From Desulfonatronospira thiodismutans ASO3-1 (GTDB lineage Bacteria > Desulfobacterota > Desulfovibrionia > Desulfovibrionales > Desulfonatronovibrionaceae): a stretch of DNA of 64,000 bases. Under the pieces are notes generated by a model. That model was not told the DNA's origin. It saw nothing but the letters and a program-made list of their open reading frames with translations, and ran no database searches. Below are positions 32,061-44,150 of this stretch, one piece after another (position 1 is the first letter of the stretch; every line of letters starts with the position of its first letter). The position numbers and the translations under genes were made by a program. The DNA is taken from positions 811,490-875,489 of the forward strand of contig NZ_ACJN02000002.1 in NCBI RefSeq assembly GCF_000174435.1, written 5' to 3'.

Positions 32061-33731
32061 TTACTGGTTGCTGCGCCAGTACTCAGGCTTTTTACCCTTG
32101 GTTCTGCAGGAATCCCGGATTTTTTCAGGCACGGCTCTAACGGGTTTTATACCGGCGTCATCCAGATCCGCCCAGGGTTCCCTGGGTGTTTCAGTGCGCT
32201 TGCCGCGTCTGTGGGCGCATTTTTCATCTTCCAGGGCCCGCAACAGGCCGGCTGTCATGGCCACCACCACCAGAGAAAAGGGCAGGGCTCCCATTATCAC
32301 CGCGGACTGAAGCACTTCCAGCCCGCCTGCCGCCAGAAGTATTGCAGTCAAAAGGGCCAGGACCACGGCCCAGAAGACCCTGTGGATGCGCGGAGGCTCG
32401 GGATCCCCGCCGGAAAGTATGGTATTGACCACCAGGGTGCCGGCATTGGCAGAAGTGATTAAAAAGGTGGCGATGAGCAGAAGCATTCCAATAGAGGCTG
32501 CAATTCCTACAAGTCCCAGGTCCAGCCCCTGCAGCATGGCGAAAAGGGCCACGGCCACGTCCTCCTCGACAGCATCGATTATGCCCCCGGAGCCGAAAAG
32601 TTCCTGGTACAGGGCTGAGCCACCGAACAGCCCCATCCAGACCATGGTCACCACGGTGGGCACCAGAAGTACACCCATGATAAATTCGCTGAAGGTCCTG
32701 CCCCTGGAGATGCGCGCGATAAACATGCCCACAAAAGGCGCCCAGGCCAGCCACCATCCCCAGTAGAAAACCGTCCATTCCGCCTGCCAGCCGTCCTCCA
32801 GGGCTGCATGGGTATACAGGTTCATCACCAGCAGATTTTGAGCATAATAGCCGGCCGCCTCCACGGTCATGGCTATGAGGTGATTGGTGGGCCCCCAGAG
32901 CATGAGAAAAGCCATCGCCGCTACCGAAAGCCAGAGGTTCAGCTCAGACATCCAGCGCACTCCGCGGTTCAGCCCGGAAACCACTGTGACGGCGGCAATG
33001 CCCATGATGCAGGCGGTGATCACCAGCTGCAGAAAAAGAGTAGCCTCCAGGTCGAATACAGCCCCGAGTCCTGAATTGAGCTGCTGTACCCCCAGACCCA
33101 GTGTGGTAACTATGCCGAAAACCGTGCCGAATACAGCCAGGGTATCCACAACGTCCCCGGATACCCCCCTGATCCTTTCTCCAAGGATAGGGTAAAGTGC
33201 TGAGCGGATGGTCAAGGGCAGGTCACGGCGAAAGGAAAAGTAGGCCAGGACCAGACCCACAAAAGCAAAAATCGCCCAGCCGTTCAGGCCCCAGTGAAAA
33301 AAAGTCAGCCTGAGTGCGGCTATGGCGGCTTCCGGGGTGCCGCCTTCTTCAACAAAGGGATTGTCGTGAAACTGCAAAACAGGCTGGGCCACCGACCAGA
33401 AGATTATGCCCACGCCCATTCCGGCTGCAAAAAGCATGGCCACCCAGGAGACAAAGGAAAACTCCGGCCTTTCGTCATCGTGGCCCAGACGGACGTCCTT
33501 GTAGTGTCCGATGCCCAGCCAGACCATAAAAAAAAGCAGAAAGGCCACCAGGATCACATAATACCATTCCAGGAAGGGGTTGAGAAAATCCCTGGCTGCG
33601 CTCAGATTGTCCGACAAAATCTCCGTATAAAATGCTCCGTATACAAGGGCCGCCAGGATAATCGCAGTGGATATTACAGTCAGGCGGGCGTTCATGCCCT
33701 TGAAGATCCCGGATTCTTTCTGAAAAGCCAT
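32061..33731 (-). CDS. BCCT-family betaine-type transporter with basic tail
   Basis: 556-residue transporter, third BCCT member of the window. Signatures AAGMGVGIIFWSVAQPVLQF, TFFHWGLNGWAIF and WTVFYWGWWLAWAPFVGMF are present. The glycine segment reads GMGVG rather than GMGIG, and VAQP replaces VAEP, which may shift ion coupling or substrate. A hydrophilic, basic C-terminal tail of about 60 residues (HRRGKRTETPRE...) follows the last helix. The ATG is preceded by GGAG. Element G lies 52 bp upstream. Confidence 0.88.
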   Translation of the reverse strand: MAFQKESGIFKGMNARLTVISTAIILAALVYGAFYTEILSDNLSAARDFLNPFLEWYYVILVAFLLFFMVWLGIGHYKDVRLGHDDERPEFSFVSWVAMLFAAGMGVGIIFWSVAQPVLQFHDNPFVEEGGTPEAAIAALRLTFFHWGLNGWAIFAFVGLVLAYFSFRRDLPLTIRSALYPILGERIRGVSGDVVDTLAVFGTVFGIVTTLGLGVQQLNSGLGAVFDLEATLFLQLVITACIMGIAAVTVVSGLNRGVRWMSELNLWLSVAAMAFLMLWGPTNHLIAMTVEAAGYYAQNLLVMNLYTHAALEDGWQAEWTVFYWGWWLAWAPFVGMFIARISRGRTFSEFIMGVLLVPTVVTMVWMGLFGGSALYQELFGSGGIIDAVEEDVAVALFAMLQGLDLGLVGIAASIGMLLLIATFLITSANAGTLVVNTILSGGDPEPPRIHRVFWAVVLALLTAILLAAGGLEVLQSAVIMGALPFSLVVVAMTAGLLRALEDEKCAHRRGKRTETPREPWADLDDAGIKPVRAVPEKIRDSCRTKGKKPEYWRSNQ

Positions 33732-35866: not shown

Positions 35867-36274
35867 TGATTCTAAGAAATATATCTGCTATGTCTTACCG
35901 TATACCGGAAACATTACCGCAATATAAAAATGATATTTCCTTCTTTTTAAGGCAGAATTAAAGATTTTGAACAGCGTAACAGTTTATCTATTTGCATGTG
36001 GCATGGGGACTGCTTAGCAGGATAGCTGGCAAAAAAACTGATTAATTTACATTTCCAAGGGCAGTTGCTCGCCTGTTTCATTATCTGCACAGAAGTTCTT
36101 ACCATATTTAACAACTAATTAATCCCTTTACACCAATTCAATGCTGTATATAGGTTTAATAGTGTACACCAGTCAGTTTGTAGTAATTTATTGCCAGGCA
36201 AGATTTAATTATTCAGTCGTAGAAAAATTTTTGTGTAGTAAGCACAAAATAATGTTCAAGTGAGGTGATGGATT
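35867..36274. other. AT-rich intergenic region with half of a mobile element
   Basis: 408 bp without a supported gene. At 35976-36013, GTAACAGTTT...ATTTGCATGTGGCATGGGGACTG matches, in reverse, the right ends of elements E and H, so it is half of such an element. The rest is AT-rich and should contain the promoter of the radical SAM gene at 36275, but I could not pick one with confidence. Confidence 0.55.
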
Positions 36275-37879
36275 ATGTTTCTGGATAAGATATGGGGTAA
36301 AAAAACAGAACAGACCGTTGAAAATCTGCCTCTATCCACCAGAAGTCTTTGCCCGGAGTGCCGTGAAACAATAGAGGCCCAGCTGGTGGAGGAGAACGGA
36401 CAGGTTTTGATGTATAAAACCTGCCCGGAACATGGGGAGTTCAGAGAGATCATAAGTGCAGACAGGGATTTTTTTATGAAAATGCGCCGCACCCATTATG
36501 AAAGACCGGCAGGACTGGACAGGCCTCAAACAAAGGTGGAACAGGGATGTCCCCACGATTGCGGGATATGCCCCAGTCATCGGTCTTTTCCTTCCATGGT
36601 CAACATTGATCTGACCAACCGGTGCAACCTGAATTGCCCCATTTGTTTTGCCAATTCCAATGCCATGGGCCGAGTATACGAGCTGGACTGGGAGCAGATC
36701 AACCATGTAATTGACTCCGTGGCAGCTCTGGGTCCCCACCCTGTGATCTGCGTGCAGTTCGCTGGTGGCGAGCCTACTATACATCCCCATTTTCTGGATG
36801 CAGTACGTCTGGCAAAGTCCCGGGAGTTTGCCCAGGTCCAGGCAGCCAGCAATGGCGTGCTGTTCGCCGGTAATTATGGTTTTGCAGAAAAGGCTGCCGA
36901 AGCTGGTCTGGATGTTGTGTACCTGCAGTTCGACGGCATGAGCGATGATATATACCGCGACACAAGAGGCCGGCCTATGTTTGAGACCAAGATGCAGGCC
37001 ATAGACAACCTGGGGCGGGCCGGAATCCGGGTGGCCCTGGTCCCCACCATCGTCAAAGGCTTTAATGATCATCAGGTGGGAGACATACTGCGCTTTGCCG
37101 TAAGAAACCCGGAGGTTGTAACCGCCATAAGCTGGCAGCCAGTGTCTTTTACCGGCCGCATAGACGAATCCAGACGCCAGGAGATGCGCTTCACCACTGC
37201 TGATCTGGCCAGGGAACTGCAGGAACAGACTGGATTACTGGATATGCACCGTGACTGGTATCCTTTTTCCATTGTCTCTCCGCTGTCCAGATTCCTGGAA
37301 GCGGTGACCGGCGAAAAAAAGGCACATACAAACTGTCATCCCCATTGCGGATGTGTAACCTATCTGGTTGTGGACAAACAGACCGGCCAGGCTGTGCCCT
37401 TTCCAGCCTTTCTGGATGTTGAAGCCCTTGCGGCCAGCCTGAACAAAAAGGCCGGGCGGCTGGAGCATTATCCCTGGTTGAAAAATGCCCTGTCTCTACA
37501 GTTCAAGGGCGAACTCAAGAAACATTTCCGCCGGGAAAACGCCCCTGAGGGCTGGGATCATGAGACGCTGATGCAGTTTGTAGACAGCCTGATTCATCTG
37601 GGAGAAGGGCACAAGGTTGACAAAAAGGTTCAGAAAGAGGCCATTCAGGGCCGCCGTTTCGAGATTATCATGTCTGCGGCCATGCATTTCCAGGATCTGT
37701 ACAACTATGAACTGGACCGGGTCCAGTACTGCGCTGTGCATTATGCCGATCCTGAAGGCCGCCTGTACCCCTTTTGCACCTGGAACAGCGGCCCCTGTCA
37801 CCGTTACAGGGTAGAGGAAATGTATGCCAGGGCACTGAATAAAAACAGGCAGGCCGAGACGGAAACCGCAGCCTCCTGA
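36275..37879 (+). CDS. Tes/MJ0619-like radical SAM protein
   Basis: 534-residue radical SAM enzyme that matches the archaeal tetraether lipid synthase (Tes) / MJ0619 family in layout. N-terminal CPEC (Cys26, Cys29) with a partner CPEHGE (Cys50), a second cysteine motif GCPHDCGICPSH (Cys92, 96, 99), then the radical SAM motif TNRCNLNCPICFANS (Cys117, 121, 124), GGEPTIHP, NGVLFAG, LVPTIVKGFNDHQVG, QPVSFTGRI, and C-terminal cysteine clusters NCHPHCGC (Cys354, 358, 360) and CAVHY...FCTW...CHRY. The multiple cysteine sets predict more than one iron-sulfur cluster. Archaeal Tes joins two lipid chains; bacterial homologues have been linked to membrane-spanning lipids. Neighbour: a B12-type radical SAM gene 95 bp downstream. 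Function here is inference. Confidence 0.82.
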   Translation: MFLDKIWGKKTEQTVENLPLSTRSLCPECRETIEAQLVEENGQVLMYKTCPEHGEFREIISADRDFFMKMRRTHYERPAGLDRPQTKVEQGCPHDCGICPSHRSFPSMVNIDLTNRCNLNCPICFANSNAMGRVYELDWEQINHVIDSVAALGPHPVICVQFAGGEPTIHPHFLDAVRLAKSREFAQVQAASNGVLFAGNYGFAEKAAEAGLDVVYLQFDGMSDDIYRDTRGRPMFETKMQAIDNLGRAGIRVALVPTIVKGFNDHQVGDILRFAVRNPEVVTAISWQPVSFTGRIDESRRQEMRFTTADLARELQEQTGLLDMHRDWYPFSIVSPLSRFLEAVTGEKKAHTNCHPHCGCVTYLVVDKQTGQAVPFPAFLDVEALAASLNKKAGRLEHYPWLKNALSLQFKGELKKHFRRENAPEGWDHETLMQFVDSLIHLGEGHKVDKKVQKEAIQGRRFEIIMSAAMHFQDLYNYELDRVQYCAVHYADPEGRLYPFCTWNSGPCHRYRVEEMYARALNKNRQAETETAAS

Positions 37880-37974
37880 TCCGGGAATGTCCGGTACCGA
37901 CATGTAAAAATGGCGGTGCCGGCTCACCCATCTGCTGATGAGAGTTGATGTTTTCAGGCATGAAGGAGGTAAAT

Positions 37975-39318
37975 ATGCGTATCCTTTTGATCAACACCCC
38001 CTTTCACAGTGCATACAAGAAGTTTACCCAGGAGTTTCCTCCCCTGGGCATAGCCTATATTGCCGGGATGCTGAGAAAGTCCGGCCATGATGTTCATCTG
38101 CTGGATCTGAACGCTTCTGATACAGGGGAGTATCCAGGATTCAGGCGTTTCGACCTGATTGGAATATCCGCGGATACACCAAGACATGACAAAGCCCTGG
38201 CCCTGGCTGCTCAGGCCAGAGAGCATCAGGTTCCTGTTGCTCTTGGAGGCCCGCATGTAAGTTTTTTGCCGGAAGAGAGCCTGAAATCCGGGTATGTGGA
38301 CTACGTAGTCAGGGGAGAAGGTGAGTATCCCATGCTTTACCTGGCTGAATTTCTGGCAGGAGAACGCTCTCTGGAAGATGTGCCGGCTGTTTCTTATCTT
38401 TTGGAAGGCGAGGCGGTGCACAACCCGGATCAATGTATTGCAAAAGACATTGATTCTCTGCCCTTTCCGGCCAGGGATCTTTTGCCCATGGACAAATACA
38501 GGACCCACCTGAATAAAAAAAGGGCCACATCAATGATCAGCAGCAGGGGCTGTCCCTTCAACTGCTCCTTCTGCGCTTCCTCGCAGCTGTTCGGAGCCAG
38601 ATGGCGGGCCAGGGAACCGGAAGCCATTTTCGATGAAATCGAGCATGTACAGCAAAGATACCAGGTTTCCAATATTTTGTTTGTTGACGACAATTTCACA
38701 CTGGACCCCCAGAGGACCGTACGCATTAGCGAACTGATCTGTAAAAAGGATCTCAACATCCAGTGGCTTTGTTTTTCCAGGGTGAATACCATTGTGGAAA
38801 ATGAAGACATGGTCCAGGGTATGGCTGAAAGTGGGGTCAGGATGATGTTTCTGGGCGTGGAAAGCCCTGACCCAAGGGTGCTTGAAAGCTACAACAAGAA
38901 AATCACTGCCGAGACCTCATTCAGGGCACTGGAGATATTGAAGAAATACAGTATAGACGCCCTGGCCAGTTTTATAATCGGCAACCTGAACGAGGACAGC
39001 AGGATGATCAAAAATACCATAAGGTTTGCAAACAAGCTCAATCCAAAGACCGCCCAGTTTTCCATTCTTACCCCCTATCCCGGTACCAGACTGTACAATG
39101 AGGTAAAAGACCGTATACTGACCTTTGACTGGTCCAGATACGACGGCATGCACGCTACAATCAAACCTGACCGGGTCAGGGCTGAGGAACTGGAGAGGCT
39201 GATAAAAAAGGCCTACGTGTCCTTTTATCTGCATCCCGGCAAGATTCTTGCTCATCCTGTAGCCGGAATGCGCAATCTGTTCATGGTGCCCAGGCTGCTG
39301 AAGGCTCAGAGTTCGTGA
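37975..39318 (+). CDS. B12-binding radical SAM protein
   Basis: 447-residue enzyme from the ATG at 37975, which has a strong AAGGAGG site. N-terminal cobalamin-binding-like domain (MRILLINTPFHSAYKKF, GISADTPRHD, VALGGPHVSFLPEE), a linker VRGEGEYPMLYLAEFL, and the radical SAM barrel with CPFNCSFC (about residue 193) and VDDNFTLDP. The last ~110 residues contain RILTFDWSRYDGMHA, typical of the large B12-radical SAM group. It probably works with the Tes-like enzyme encoded upstream, for instance in lipid methylation or cross-linking. The 3' end overlaps the end of the convergent YhaN-like gene by 13 bases. Confidence 0.86.
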   Translation: MRILLINTPFHSAYKKFTQEFPPLGIAYIAGMLRKSGHDVHLLDLNASDTGEYPGFRRFDLIGISADTPRHDKALALAAQAREHQVPVALGGPHVSFLPEESLKSGYVDYVVRGEGEYPMLYLAEFLAGERSLEDVPAVSYLLEGEAVHNPDQCIAKDIDSLPFPARDLLPMDKYRTHLNKKRATSMISSRGCPFNCSFCASSQLFGARWRAREPEAIFDEIEHVQQRYQVSNILFVDDNFTLDPQRTVRISELICKKDLNIQWLCFSRVNTIVENEDMVQGMAESGVRMMFLGVESPDPRVLESYNKKITAETSFRALEILKKYSIDALASFIIGNLNEDSRMIKNTIRFANKLNPKTAQFSILTPYPGTRLYNEVKDRILTFDWSRYDGMHATIKPDRVRAEELERLIKKAYVSFYLHPGKILAHPVAGMRNLFMVPRLLKAQSS

Positions 39319-42300
39319 ATCTGGAGCCTGGCCGGGTCCAGGTGCTGTCTGGCCAGGTGCAGTAAGTGTGTGTGGTGGGTGAAGAACAGAACCTGGGTCT
39401 GCTTAGACAGAAGGGCCAGTTCCTGCAGGGTCTGTGCGGATCTTTCATCGTCAAAGTGGACCAGAATGTCATCCACTATAAAGGGGAAAGGAGGATTGTT
39501 GTCCAGGTAATGCCTGATCCCGCCCAGGCGCAGGGCCAGAAAGAGCTGGTCCCTGGTGCCGTCGCTCATTTCTTCCACTCCAAGACCGGTGCCGTCCATG
39601 CGCAGGGCTTTAAGCACGGGCTCGCCGCGCTGATCGTAGTCCGCATAGATGCCGGTGAGGGAGCCAAGAGTGATTCTGTTCAAGGTTTTGCCGGCCATTT
39701 CCAGGACCGGCCCCTGGTTGGCCTGTCTGAAGCGCTCCATCTCGGAGCTCAGGATGGCCTCGGCCAGGCGAAGCTGGATGTATTCCTGCACCTCCTGTTC
39801 AAGCTCGGATTTTTGCTCCTGGATCTGCTGACTAATATCCGCGGCCTTTGAGGTTCCGTCCAGGTCCTGCAGCTCCTTTTCCAGGGTGGCGTGTTCACTG
39901 ATTATTTCCTCTCGCTTTTTTTCCAGCTCCTCTTTTTCCTCTGCAAGCTCTGTGGACAAAGCCTGCAGTTCCTGCATGTCCCGGGCGGAAGCGTCATTTA
40001 TGAATTTCTCCAGGTCCTCGCCTCCGGCCAGTTCCTGCAGTTGCTCCTCCTGCTGTCTTAGCTCTGTGCGCAGTTCCTGCTTCATTGCGGCCTTTTCCTC
40101 CAGGGCGGGCAGTTCTTCGGGGTGCTCTGCCCCGGCTTCTCTGCAAAGCTGTTCCAGTTCCCTTTGCAGGGTCTGGATTCTGCCTTCTGCCTGGTCCAGT
40201 TTTGTGCGTATTTTACGTCGCTCCTGCTGCAGATGCTCCTGCCTGGACTGCTTTTTCTCTTCCTGGTCCAGTTCCAGGGCGAGCGCCTCCAGGATTTCCA
40301 GAGGAGAGGCCCTGCCGGGGTTTCGCTTAAGTTCCTGCACAAGGCCTTGAACCGCAGATTCGAATTCCCGGACTTTTTGTTCCAGGCCGGCTTTTCTCTG
40401 CTGCAGGGAGCGCATTCTGCCGCAGGCAGCAAAGAGGTCCTGGCGCAGCTGGATCTCTTCCTGCACGGTCCGGATATCGCTGTCAGGGTCAAGGCTCAGG
40501 GACTCAAGAGCCCGGATCCAGTTTTGCCTCCAAGTATTCAGGTCTTCCTGGACTGCGCCGGCCTGCTCCCCGGCTTTTTGCAGCTTTTTTTCCGCGCTGC
40601 GGATTTCCTTGCGCAACAGATCAGCTGCAGCCAGATCATCCCTGGCCCGGTCCCGGTACTTATCAATAATACGGTTCAGGGTGGCCGGGTCATGTCCTTG
40701 GGCGGCGCTGTATCCGGCACTTTCCAGAGCCTTTGCGCCCTGGGTGCAAAGGCTCTGCAGTTCCTGCTCGTATTCTTCCAGGGCCTGCTGGTACTGCTGT
40801 TTTTCCTGGACCTGGCGGATAAGTTCCTGGGCCCTGTACAGCCAGGCCTGCATTTCCCGGGGGGACAGGGGCTCAATGCCTGTTTCACTCCAGAGGGCCT
40901 GCCATTCCCGGCAGGCCTGCTGGTAATCGGCCCCGGCCTTATCCAGGTCTTTGCTGGCCTGGTCAATCTTCTGGCTGCAGGCCTGGATTTCATCATGCAG
41001 GGCCTTGAGTCTGGCCAGGTGGTGTGCCCGGTCCAGCATCTGGTCCGTGGTCTGGTCCAGCTCTGATATGCTTTGTTCAAAGCTGGAGGCCAGGTCTTCT
41101 CCTCCGGTCTGGTGCAGGTATTCATGGATCTCTTCAGGGGACTGCGTGCCTTGCAGCCATGATTTTTTGATAAGACTCCAACCCTGGTCCCGGACCTTCC
41201 TCCGGGACTCCAGGTCCCGGGGCAATGGCAGGGCATGTTCTTTCTGCCTGCGCTCAAGTTCTGCCTGTCTGTCTGCCAGTTCCTGGTTCAGTTCCTGGTG
41301 TTTGTGGCGGGCGGATTCCAGTTGCTTTTCTTTTGCATCCAGAAGACTCTGCATGCGCTCCAGGCTTTCAGGCAGGGGCAGAGGCAGCCCGGGCAGGCTC
41401 CGGGAATCCAGGCTGGCAAGTCCCAGGGAGGATATACCGGCCTGGATCTGTAGCTGCAGGCTCTGTACTTTTTCCCCGGCCTTGCGGATCTTGTCCTGCA
41501 GGTCTTCTCCAGAGGTTAGTTTCTTAGATACGGCATCCAGAAGCTCAATGTCCGGAAGCGGTGGCATTTTTTTGAGATCTCTGCGACAAAGGCGCAGGAT
41601 ACGGGCCTGTTCCAGCATGGATTCCCGGGCCTGACTTGCCTTCTGGTCCAGGGAGCTTTTTTCACTGGCCAGTTCCTGAATGCGGCTCTGATGCTTGCGA
41701 TCAGGGGCCAGATGGTCCATGTCGCTGCAGGATACGGAGCTGCCAAGCATGGCCTTTTTGTCCTGGATGGTCTGCTCCAGGGTGATCTTTTCCGCTTCAA
41801 GGTCCTGCAGTTCCTGCATGGCCTGCTGTATCAGGGCCACCTGGCCGGAAAGGGTCCTGATACGCGGAGCGAACCGGATAAGACCGGAATCAATTTCCAG
41901 TTCTGACAGCTCCTGTTCAAGGTCCTGCAGCTCCTTTTGCCGGTCCCGGCGATCCTGACGGGCGTTTTCCAGGCTGCTTGCCGCCTTGACCCTGCGCTGG
42001 CTGAAGTCCTGCTCCAGCCTGGGGACATGCTCCAGTTCCCCGAGCTGCCTGAGCAGGTCCCTGCGCCTGGCAATGCGGGGCAGGGCCCTGATACAGGTGG
42101 AGTGCCACGCAAGGTCGGCCTCAAGCTGTTTAAGCCGGGAGAGAGTGTTCTGCTTCTGGTGGAGCTTTTGTTTGAGTTCATTCTGCAGGTTTTTCCAGCG
42201 CTCGGGTTTGATGGATGCCTGGCGCAGTTCCCTGCCCAGCTCTGCCATGGAGGACTTTTTCTGCATGATCCGGGTGGATGAAGCCCTGGGCCGGAAAAGT

Positions 42301-42809
42301 TCGTCGGCCCGCTTGTGCAGGTCTTCCCGGACCCGGCGCAGGTGCATGATCCCGGCTGCGGCCGAGAAAAGGGCCTGGCCCAGATGGCCCTGGGCCCGCA
42401 GGATTTCTTTTCCCCCGGCCCGCAGGTTGTCATGGCTTATGCCGAACATTGCCGAGAACATGTCTCTGCTCATGCCGGACATGAGCCTGTTTACGGCTTC
42501 CTGGGGCACGGGACTGTTAGATGCGTCCAGAAGATCGTTCTTGCGCCTCTTGTAGCGGGTGATTTCCCATTGCTGTCCGCTGTCCAGCTCCAGGCAGGCG
42601 CCCACGGCCAGGTCCTTGTTCTGGTGCAGGAATCCGTCTCTGGTCTGGTGGTCAAAGCCGTAAAACAGGGTGGTCAGGGCGCGCAGGGCTGTGCTTTTAC
42701 CGGCTTCGTTGGGACCGTAGATGAGTTGCAGGCCGCCGTTTTGTTCCAGCTGGAGCTCTGTGCCGGTGAAATGCCCGTAGGCTTTTAGTTTGAGTGTGTT
42801 TATTTTCAT
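39306..42809 (-). CDS. YhaN-like SMC/Rad50-type ATPase
   Basis: 1167-residue coiled-coil ATPase that pairs with an Mre11-like nuclease. Walker A GPNEAGKST (residues 32-40) at the N-terminus, a very long Leu/Glu/Gln-rich coiled coil (about 190-1000) and a C-terminal half with the signature VEEMSDGTRDQ and Walker B FIVDDILVHFDDE. The N-terminal sequence MKINTLKLKAYGHFTGTEL matches YhaN rather than SbcC. It probably functions in processing of DNA ends. The partner nuclease gene lies 69 bases upstream in the same operon. Confidence 0.86.
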   Translation of the reverse strand: MKINTLKLKAYGHFTGTELQLEQNGGLQLIYGPNEAGKSTALRALTTLFYGFDHQTRDGFLHQNKDLAVGACLELDSGQQWEITRYKRRKNDLLDASNSPVPQEAVNRLMSGMSRDMFSAMFGISHDNLRAGGKEILRAQGHLGQALFSAAAGIMHLRRVREDLHKRADELFRPRASSTRIMQKKSSMAELGRELRQASIKPERWKNLQNELKQKLHQKQNTLSRLKQLEADLAWHSTCIRALPRIARRRDLLRQLGELEHVPRLEQDFSQRRVKAASSLENARQDRRDRQKELQDLEQELSELEIDSGLIRFAPRIRTLSGQVALIQQAMQELQDLEAEKITLEQTIQDKKAMLGSSVSCSDMDHLAPDRKHQSRIQELASEKSSLDQKASQARESMLEQARILRLCRRDLKKMPPLPDIELLDAVSKKLTSGEDLQDKIRKAGEKVQSLQLQIQAGISSLGLASLDSRSLPGLPLPLPESLERMQSLLDAKEKQLESARHKHQELNQELADRQAELERRQKEHALPLPRDLESRRKVRDQGWSLIKKSWLQGTQSPEEIHEYLHQTGGEDLASSFEQSISELDQTTDQMLDRAHHLARLKALHDEIQACSQKIDQASKDLDKAGADYQQACREWQALWSETGIEPLSPREMQAWLYRAQELIRQVQEKQQYQQALEEYEQELQSLCTQGAKALESAGYSAAQGHDPATLNRIIDKYRDRARDDLAAADLLRKEIRSAEKKLQKAGEQAGAVQEDLNTWRQNWIRALESLSLDPDSDIRTVQEEIQLRQDLFAACGRMRSLQQRKAGLEQKVREFESAVQGLVQELKRNPGRASPLEILEALALELDQEEKKQSRQEHLQQERRKIRTKLDQAEGRIQTLQRELEQLCREAGAEHPEELPALEEKAAMKQELRTELRQQEEQLQELAGGEDLEKFINDASARDMQELQALSTELAEEKEELEKKREEIISEHATLEKELQDLDGTSKAADISQQIQEQKSELEQEVQEYIQLRLAEAILSSEMERFRQANQGPVLEMAGKTLNRITLGSLTGIYADYDQRGEPVLKALRMDGTGLGVEEMSDGTRDQLFLALRLGGIRHYLDNNPPFPFIVDDILVHFDDERSAQTLQELALLSKQTQVLFFTHHTHLLHLARQHLDPARLQIHEL

Positions 42810-42878
42810 GGTTGTCTACGCTTTCCCGCAGTCTGCAGTCCTGGTCCGGGGTATGGGTCTGGAGCCGCGGTTATATTC

Positions 42879-44150
42879 TCAGGAGCCGTTTCCGGTACTG
42901 GACATGTCCCGGGCCAGCAGGGTCATGACCATATCCCGGCAGCGGGATACATACTCCTGTCTGGTGTGGGGGTCGTCCAGGTCCGGCAGTTCCACCCCGG
43001 TGCCGCCAAGCTTGGCCCTAAGCTCTGTCAGATCCAGGTCCAGGGACTTAAACAGTTCCGGATCCTGTTCCAGTGCCTGCATATATCCGGCCAGATGGGC
43101 CAGGGCCGTGCCCGAAGCCTTGATTTCCTCCCAGTCCAGGGCCGGAGTGCACTGGTTGAAAATTTTTTCCACCCAGATGGTTTGTCCGGAGATGTCCGTG
43201 GCCAGGTTGCGGATCTCGGCCTGCAGTCCGGCAAAATCATGCATAATGTCTGAAAAGGCCCCTGTGGTGCCCTTTAAGGTGAGGCGCAGGCCCAGGAGTT
43301 TTTCACTGTCTCTGGCTGCGGATATGTTTTCCAGCTCCCGGCTGACCAGGTCCAGTACAGCCCCCCGGGTCTTAAGCCCCGAGACGTCCAGTTCCATGTG
43401 CTGCCAGCGCAGGACGTCCAGTTCCACCCGCTCGATATTTATCCTGCCGGAAGGGTCCACGTCCACGCGCATGCAGCCTTTGCCCCCTGGTTCGCGGATA
43501 TGGCGTCCCTGGATGCATCCGCTGAAGATGACCGGCGGATCCCGGTGCAAGATTTCATGGCGGTGGATGTGTCCCAGGGCCCAGTAGTCGTAGCCCTTTG
43601 CCAGGAGCTGGTTCAGGGTGCACGGGGCGTATCCGCTGTGTTCCGGAGTGCCGGACAGGGATGTGTGCAGAAGGCCTATGTTGAACATGCCCGGGACCGG
43701 GTCCGGGTAGTTCAGGGCCAGATTCTCCAGGACGGCTTCCCGGTCATAGCTCTGACCGTGAACTGCAGTGCCCAGGTCCTCCAGTTTCCAGGTGGCGGGC
43801 CTGGCAGCTGAAAAAGTAAAGACATTGTCCGGAAGGCGCAAAGACTTAGTCATCCTGTTCTGGGCGTCATGATTGCCCCGGATGAGGGCCACCCGGGTCC
43901 CGGCTTCCCGCAGCCTGCTCATCTGGGCGGAAAAGTGCAGCGGGGTCTGAAAGTCCGGGCAGTCACCGTCGTAGAGATCCCCGGCAATGAGCAGCAGGGG
44001 GATGCGATGTTCCAGTACGTAGTTTACCAGGTTGTCCAGGGCCTTGCGGGTGGCCTGGCGTATTTCCCGGGCCGGTGCTCCCTCGTAGCGGCTCAGGCCG
44101 TGCAGAGGGCTGTCCAGGTGGATATCTGCGGCGTGGATGAATGTAAGCAT
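42879..44150 (-). CDS. YhaO/SbcD/Mre11-like metallophosphoesterase
   Basis: 423-residue DNA nuclease-like protein. Metallophosphoesterase motifs are visible in order: AADIHLDSP, IAGDLYDGD, IRGNHDAQ, LLHTSLSG and ALGHIHRHE. The C-terminal ~150 residues should bind the ATPase partner encoded downstream. Mre11-type enzymes open hairpins and resect DNA ends. Assigned to the YhaO branch because of its YhaN-like partner. Confidence 0.87.
   Translation of the reverse strand: MLTFIHAADIHLDSPLHGLSRYEGAPAREIRQATRKALDNLVNYVLEHRIPLLLIAGDLYDGDCPDFQTPLHFSAQMSRLREAGTRVALIRGNHDAQNRMTKSLRLPDNVFTFSAARPATWKLEDLGTAVHGQSYDREAVLENLALNYPDPVPGMFNIGLLHTSLSGTPEHSGYAPCTLNQLLAKGYDYWALGHIHRHEILHRDPPVIFSGCIQGRHIREPGGKGCMRVDVDPSGRINIERVELDVLRWQHMELDVSGLKTRGAVLDLVSRELENISAARDSEKLLGLRLTLKGTTGAFSDIMHDFAGLQAEIRNLATDISGQTIWVEKIFNQCTPALDWEEIKASGTALAHLAGYMQALEQDPELFKSLDLDLTELRAKLGGTGVELPDLDDPHTRQEYVSRCRDMVMTLLARDMSSTGNGS

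Follow-up and report, generated by a model that had tools for sequence, protein, structure and literature searches.

We analysed a 64,000-nucleotide stretch (the window) of the Desulfonatronospira thiodismutans ASO3-1 genome (G000; 4.1 Mb, 97.7% complete), in which two radical SAM genes, here called A and B, follow each other on the plus strand. The features at and around the locus are:

32061-33731: BCCT betaine-type transporter
35867-36274: intergenic region 5' of gene A, AT-rich (33.6% GC), presumed site of the gene A promoter
36262-36269, plus strand: putative ribosome-binding site of gene A, GAGGTGAT, AGGTGA-type, read from the sequence
36275-37879, plus strand: gene A, a bacterial Tes, radical SAM enzyme of 534 aa (ATG start at 36275, stop at 37879)
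37963-37969, plus strand: putative ribosome-binding site of gene B, AAGGAGG, likewise from the sequence
37975-39318, plus strand: gene B, a cobalamin-binding radical SAM enzyme of 447 aa, subfamily unnamed, with a putative functional tie to gene A
39306-44150, minus strand: SbcC/AAA_27-like protein (1167 aa) and SbcD-like exonuclease, convergent with gene B

Both open reading frames of the original prediction were recovered at these positions. For gene B the ATG at 37975, which stands behind AAGGAGG, is the preferred start; the TTG at 37945 chosen by the ORF caller is less likely. The gene A stop and the gene B start are thus 95 bp apart. A scan for promoters, uninformative in its outcome, found no sigma-70 consensus on the plus strand of 35867-36274.

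The host had been described as a salt-tolerant sulfate reducer. Its DsrA scores 610.6 bits in a profile search, far above the cut-off of 392.85, so the sulfate- or sulfite-reducing part of that description is sound; salt tolerance is at most suggested, its one basis being the nearby BCCT transporter.

Family membership of gene A

Tes is the tetraether lipid synthase family, whose archaeal enzyme joins lipid tails into membrane-spanning lipids. Gene A contains both stretches highlighted at the outset, TNRCNLNCPICFANS and KGFNDHQVGD. With 483.3 bits it passes the cut-off of 450 of the NCBI equivalog model for Tes (NF045702), and it matches the GDGT-MAS crystal sequence (7TOL) over nearly its full length with 395 bits; against the model for TrsS, a radical SAM (seleno)protein (NF045646), it reaches 338.8 bits and fails the cut-off of 490.

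All residues that ligate the four metallocofactors in MJ0619 (C9/C12/C33/H36, C73/C77/C80, CX3CX2C and M439; PMC9433317) have counterparts in gene A, which has a rubredoxin-type site (C26, C29, C50, H53), an N-cluster (C92, C96, C99, H102), the radical SAM cluster (C117, C121, C124) and a C-cluster (C358, M470, C486, C501) in which M470 corresponds to the labile Met439 and the conserved C358, C486 and C501 are present. The original prediction had taken this layout as the sign of Tes. It is indeed complete, but the alignment revealed the same layout, equally complete, in 12 TrsS-like proteins of the sister family; it is therefore not diagnostic, and we rejected it as proof of Tes.

The identity of gene A as Tes rests instead on other residues, curated score, tree and fold. 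Gene A retains the Tes-specific residues H355, H471, Y476 and Y490 (H335, H440, Y445 and Y459 in MJ numbering, Y490 being the equivalent of Tyr459), at whose columns the 12 TrsS-like proteins mostly have D, P or A, W and V. Among the 71 columns that are at least 95% conserved in Tes, 70 are unchanged; the sole deviation is Y485, an Arg in nearly all Tes (R454 in MJ numbering). An AlphaFold2 model built from 34 relatives (mean pLDDT 87.4) aligns with 7TOM (GDGT-MAS/MJ0619) over 481 residues (Z 53.0, 2.0 Å), a full-length match that includes the C-terminal cluster domain, with MoaA as the runner-up (Z 20.9). The dN/dS values of 0.26 and 0.13 against congeners indicate purifying selection.

Phylogeny, the check that had been proposed for the assignment, groups gene A with Tes and leaves the TrsS-like proteins outside. 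In a tree of 108 proteins, TrsS-like ones included, gene A falls inside the bacterial Tes clade (SH-aLRT 99; the split from TrsS-like proteins likewise 99), where it shares a deep, separate branch with the proteins of two congeners and of one Planctomycetota MAG. Score, tree, fold and Tes-specific residues hence bear out the Tes assignment. Gene A resembles Tes/GDGT-MAS in length, in fold, in its three [4Fe-4S] clusters and rubredoxin-like site, in the labile Met ligand and in the Tyr459 equivalent, but is only 38% identical to it, sits on its own deep branch, has a Tyr in place of R454 and belongs to a bacterial host without GGGP synthase. The Acidobacteriota (Solibacter-type) Tes (PMC10087280, PMC8941075) fall in the same bacterial clade and are about 42-45% identical to gene A, but they occupy separate branches.

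The claim that the locus represents an undescribed system does not hold for gene A, because 456 bacterial Tes homologues were already reported in 2022 (PMC8941075), and others are known from Black Sea Desulfobacterota MAGs (PMC11868695); gene A adds a new host lineage to a known family. Its distribution is patchy: three of the 18 genomes of the host's family contain it, and 15 of 395 sampled Desulfobacterota genomes encode a protein above the Tes cut-off. Identity to gene A is 98% in one congener (G004), 76% in the other (G001) and 57% in the Planctomycetota MAG (L095), the nearest relative outside the genus. A search of viral contigs found nothing, and plasmids yielded merely distant Tes-like matches (<34% identity). 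A MAG labelled Kuenenia stuttgartiensis (L138) has a Tes homologue of 40% identity.

Lipid genes and the probable substrate of gene A

A profile search found no GGGP synthase (PF01884, PcrB family) in the 97.7% complete genome, so the tails handled by gene A are probably bacterial and its substrate is probably a bacterial acyl or alkyl phospholipid. Activity on archaeal-type isoprenoid ether lipids, as in archaeal Tes, would agree with the family membership of gene A, but with GGGP synthase absent we rejected this substrate and consider it highly improbable.

The genome contains two PlsA/Ger-like systems, homologues of ether-lipid reductases (L225:2577-6785 and L224:808-5264), which are candidates for making alkyl ether or plasmalogen lipids. 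In one of them, a protein of 1402 aa combines two PF01869 activation domains with DUF2229, an architecture associated with validated glycerol ester reductases (PMC13274423); the other is a gene pair (1022 and 450 aa). The same source warns that Ger is not assignable from sequence alone. The 1402-aa protein also occurs in congeners without Tes, and the Ger-like proteins of this genome, which are not linked to gene A there, may be other acyl-CoA dehydratase activases.

Elsewhere, bacterial Tes and Ger-like genes lie side by side. In eight loci from Planctomycetota, Glassbacteria and one Acidobacteriota MAG (L123, L155, L121, L125, L167, L169, L148 and L161), Tes shares its strand with Ger-like genes that encode activation domains, DUF2229 and an HGD-D-like part, at distances of at most about 1.4 kb. 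Judged by gene order, these loci are candidate tetraether operons; a limited literature check found no description of the arrangement. This gene order supports an involvement of bacterial Tes in making membrane-spanning ether lipids. By description, the proposed chemical outcome equals that of the Mss and Ger route to bacterial membrane-spanning ether lipids in Thermotoga and Bacillota (PMC13274423), and our host likewise has Ger/PlsA-like proteins.

The missing GGGP synthase, the Ger-like genes and the Tes-Ger loci together make the coupling of bacterial acyl or alkyl lipid tails the most likely function of gene A. We therefore think it probable that gene A is a Tes homologue that couples bacterial lipid tails in the manner of GDGT-MAS, and that gene B is separate and not needed for the retention of Tes. 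By the mechanism described for GDGT-MAS (PMC9433317), the SAM-bound cluster would generate a 5'-deoxyadenosyl radical that would abstract hydrogen at the methyl terminus of one lipid tail; the tail radical would then reside on the C-terminal [4Fe-4S] cluster, where attack by a second tail radical would create a C-C bond between the two tails, giving a membrane-spanning or macrocyclic lipid. With, for example, iso-branched acyl chains or alkyl chains made by Ger/PlsA as tails, the products would be iso-diabolic-acid or brGDGT-like lipids. Solibacter Tes has been proposed to make branched tetraethers, the brGDGTs (PMC10087280).

Several points count against tail coupling by gene A. The activity of bacterial Tes has been described as unconfirmed (PMC11868695), and the literature that we examined contains no demonstrated activity of any bacterial Tes; the deep branch, Y485, the patchy occurrence and the Ger-like proteins unlinked to gene A add to this. 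The branch and the Arg-to-Tyr exchange would also suit an enzyme of Tes fold with a changed substrate, whose product might for example be a cross-link within a single leaflet, a lipid of the outer membrane or a hydrophobic compound other than a lipid, as would the presence of other bacterial Tes in clusters with LpxL, LolA and ketosynthase genes, which is suggestive of outer-membrane lipid chemistry. However, the conserved core of Tes is kept in all but one column and the fold match extends through the C-terminal cluster domain, and we regard a changed substrate as rather unlikely.

Gene B and its relation to gene A

Gene B had been predicted as a B12-type radical SAM enzyme with its own ribosome-binding site, and so it proved: it combines PF02310 (B12-binding) with PF04055 (radical SAM), and the three cysteines of its cluster motif (C193-x3-C197-x2-C200) are invariant in the alignment (A4). 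Domain order and fold are those of BchE, HpnJ, HpnR and TIGR04072, but gene B stays well under all of the curated NCBIfam cut-offs, reaching none (bits against cut-off: HpnJ 201/577.6, HpnR 175.6/650, BchE 225.3/481.35, TIGR04072 127/360). A hopanoid role suggested by the HpnJ/HpnR similarity was rejected because these cut-offs are missed and the host genome has no hopene cyclase. The structural model is confident and of an ordinary cobalamin radical SAM type, nearest to AprD4, TsrM and MgmA (Foldseek).

In a tree with 68 relatives, gene B belongs to a clade of 20 members (support 100/99), 18 of which are Desulfobacterota proteins encoded away from Tes; the only other member near a Tes comes from a Nitrospiraceae MAG (L146). 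Neighbours of the gene B orthologues include BadF/DUF2229 proteins, LpxL-type acyltransferases, MMPL exporters, a FabD-like protein and a ladderane-type B12 radical SAM protein above its cut-off. These lipid gene neighbours suggest that the clade acts on lipids or acyl chains, but not that it depends on Tes, and by analogy a lipid role of gene B is plausible. In five Desulfobacterota clusters (L217:4029-18197, L214, L215, L218 and L219), BadF, DUF2229/HGD-D, a gene B-type B12 radical SAM protein, LpxL and FabD occur with three further B12 radical SAM proteins, one of them above the ladderane cut-off of TIGR04072.

Were genes A and B a true lipid modification unit, as the original prediction proposed, Tes would couple the tails and gene B would methylate or cyclise the chain, either by a C5/C6 methylation as in brGDGTs or by ring formation like that of the archaeal Grs enzymes; the ring synthases of archaea are described as cobalamin radical SAM enzymes (PMC13142503). 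The short distance on one strand is consistent with such a unit, and a terminator scan, again uninformative, found no plus-strand terminator between the genes, so that co-transcription is possible. The lipid gene clusters of the gene B clade fit as well, as do the clade member and several other B12 radical SAM proteins that lie near Tes of a different clade.

The comparison with relatives argues against this arrangement. In G004, gene B is reduced to two fragments beside a Tes that is 98% identical to gene A, although an assembly error is possible, and the contig has also lost most of sbcCD through collinear deletions; with genes A and B as a unit, G004 would be a degraded case. In neither G001 nor the Planctomycetota MAG does gene B stand beside Tes, and the 18 Desulfobacterota genomes with clear gene B orthologues have no Tes above the cut-off, the two sets of carriers being disjoint except for the host itself. 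Around bacterial Tes we counted 10 B12 radical SAM genes in 854 kb, compared with roughly 5 to 9 first-look candidates per Mb; a general enrichment is at best modest, because these genes concentrate in one other Tes clade. A conserved A-B operon was accordingly not supported in the genus, the family, the 395 Desulfobacterota genomes or the 80 named loci. Loss in one congener, lack of adjacency in the other and in the MAG, and disjoint genomes leave the two-enzyme reading weak, and we hold it to be unlikely; gene B appears to be a neighbour peculiar to the lineage and not one partner of a conserved pair of enzymes.

On the favoured reading of gene A as a tail-coupling Tes, gene B would already have stood beside Tes in the common ancestor of two congeners and may decorate the same lipids while being dispensable for keeping Tes. 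The more specific idea that both enzymes make a modified membrane-spanning lipid, with Tes coupling iso-branched tails and gene B inserting an extra methyl group or ring, seems to us improbable; if true, the gene B clade would be among the missing tailoring enzymes of the bacterial branched tetraether lipids that serve as palaeothermometers.

Compared with the window, the G004 contig (L066; G004:C198) shows three collinear deletions, which together removed most of gene B and of sbcCD. They measure 560 bp, 624 bp and about 5.2 kb, and the sequences overlap briefly at the second and third joints.

Conserved Tes neighbourhoods and congeners as a test case

Bacterial tetraether lipids are used as climate proxies, and their sources are disputed. 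A sulfate reducer that has Tes and Ger-like enzymes, and whose close relatives lack Tes, offers a natural test of bacterial Tes function: a core-lipid contrast between congeners with and without Tes bears on whether bacterial Tes makes membrane-spanning lipids. The moderate interest of the locus lies chiefly in this clean lipid comparison.

Another Tes clade has a conserved cluster in which an LpxL-like acyltransferase, Tes and LolA, in this order, are variously followed by radical SAM and B12 radical SAM proteins, ATP-grasp, polysaccharide deacetylase, an ABC or MMPL exporter and ketoacyl synthase (L146:9059-20968, L139:9120-21509, L152:2822-12239, L071:1-16809, L072:3508-16113, L073 and L074). 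Its gene content suggests a hitherto undescribed gene cluster for outer-membrane lipids. Both this cluster and the Tes-Ger loci are Tes neighbourhoods better conserved than the A-B pair.
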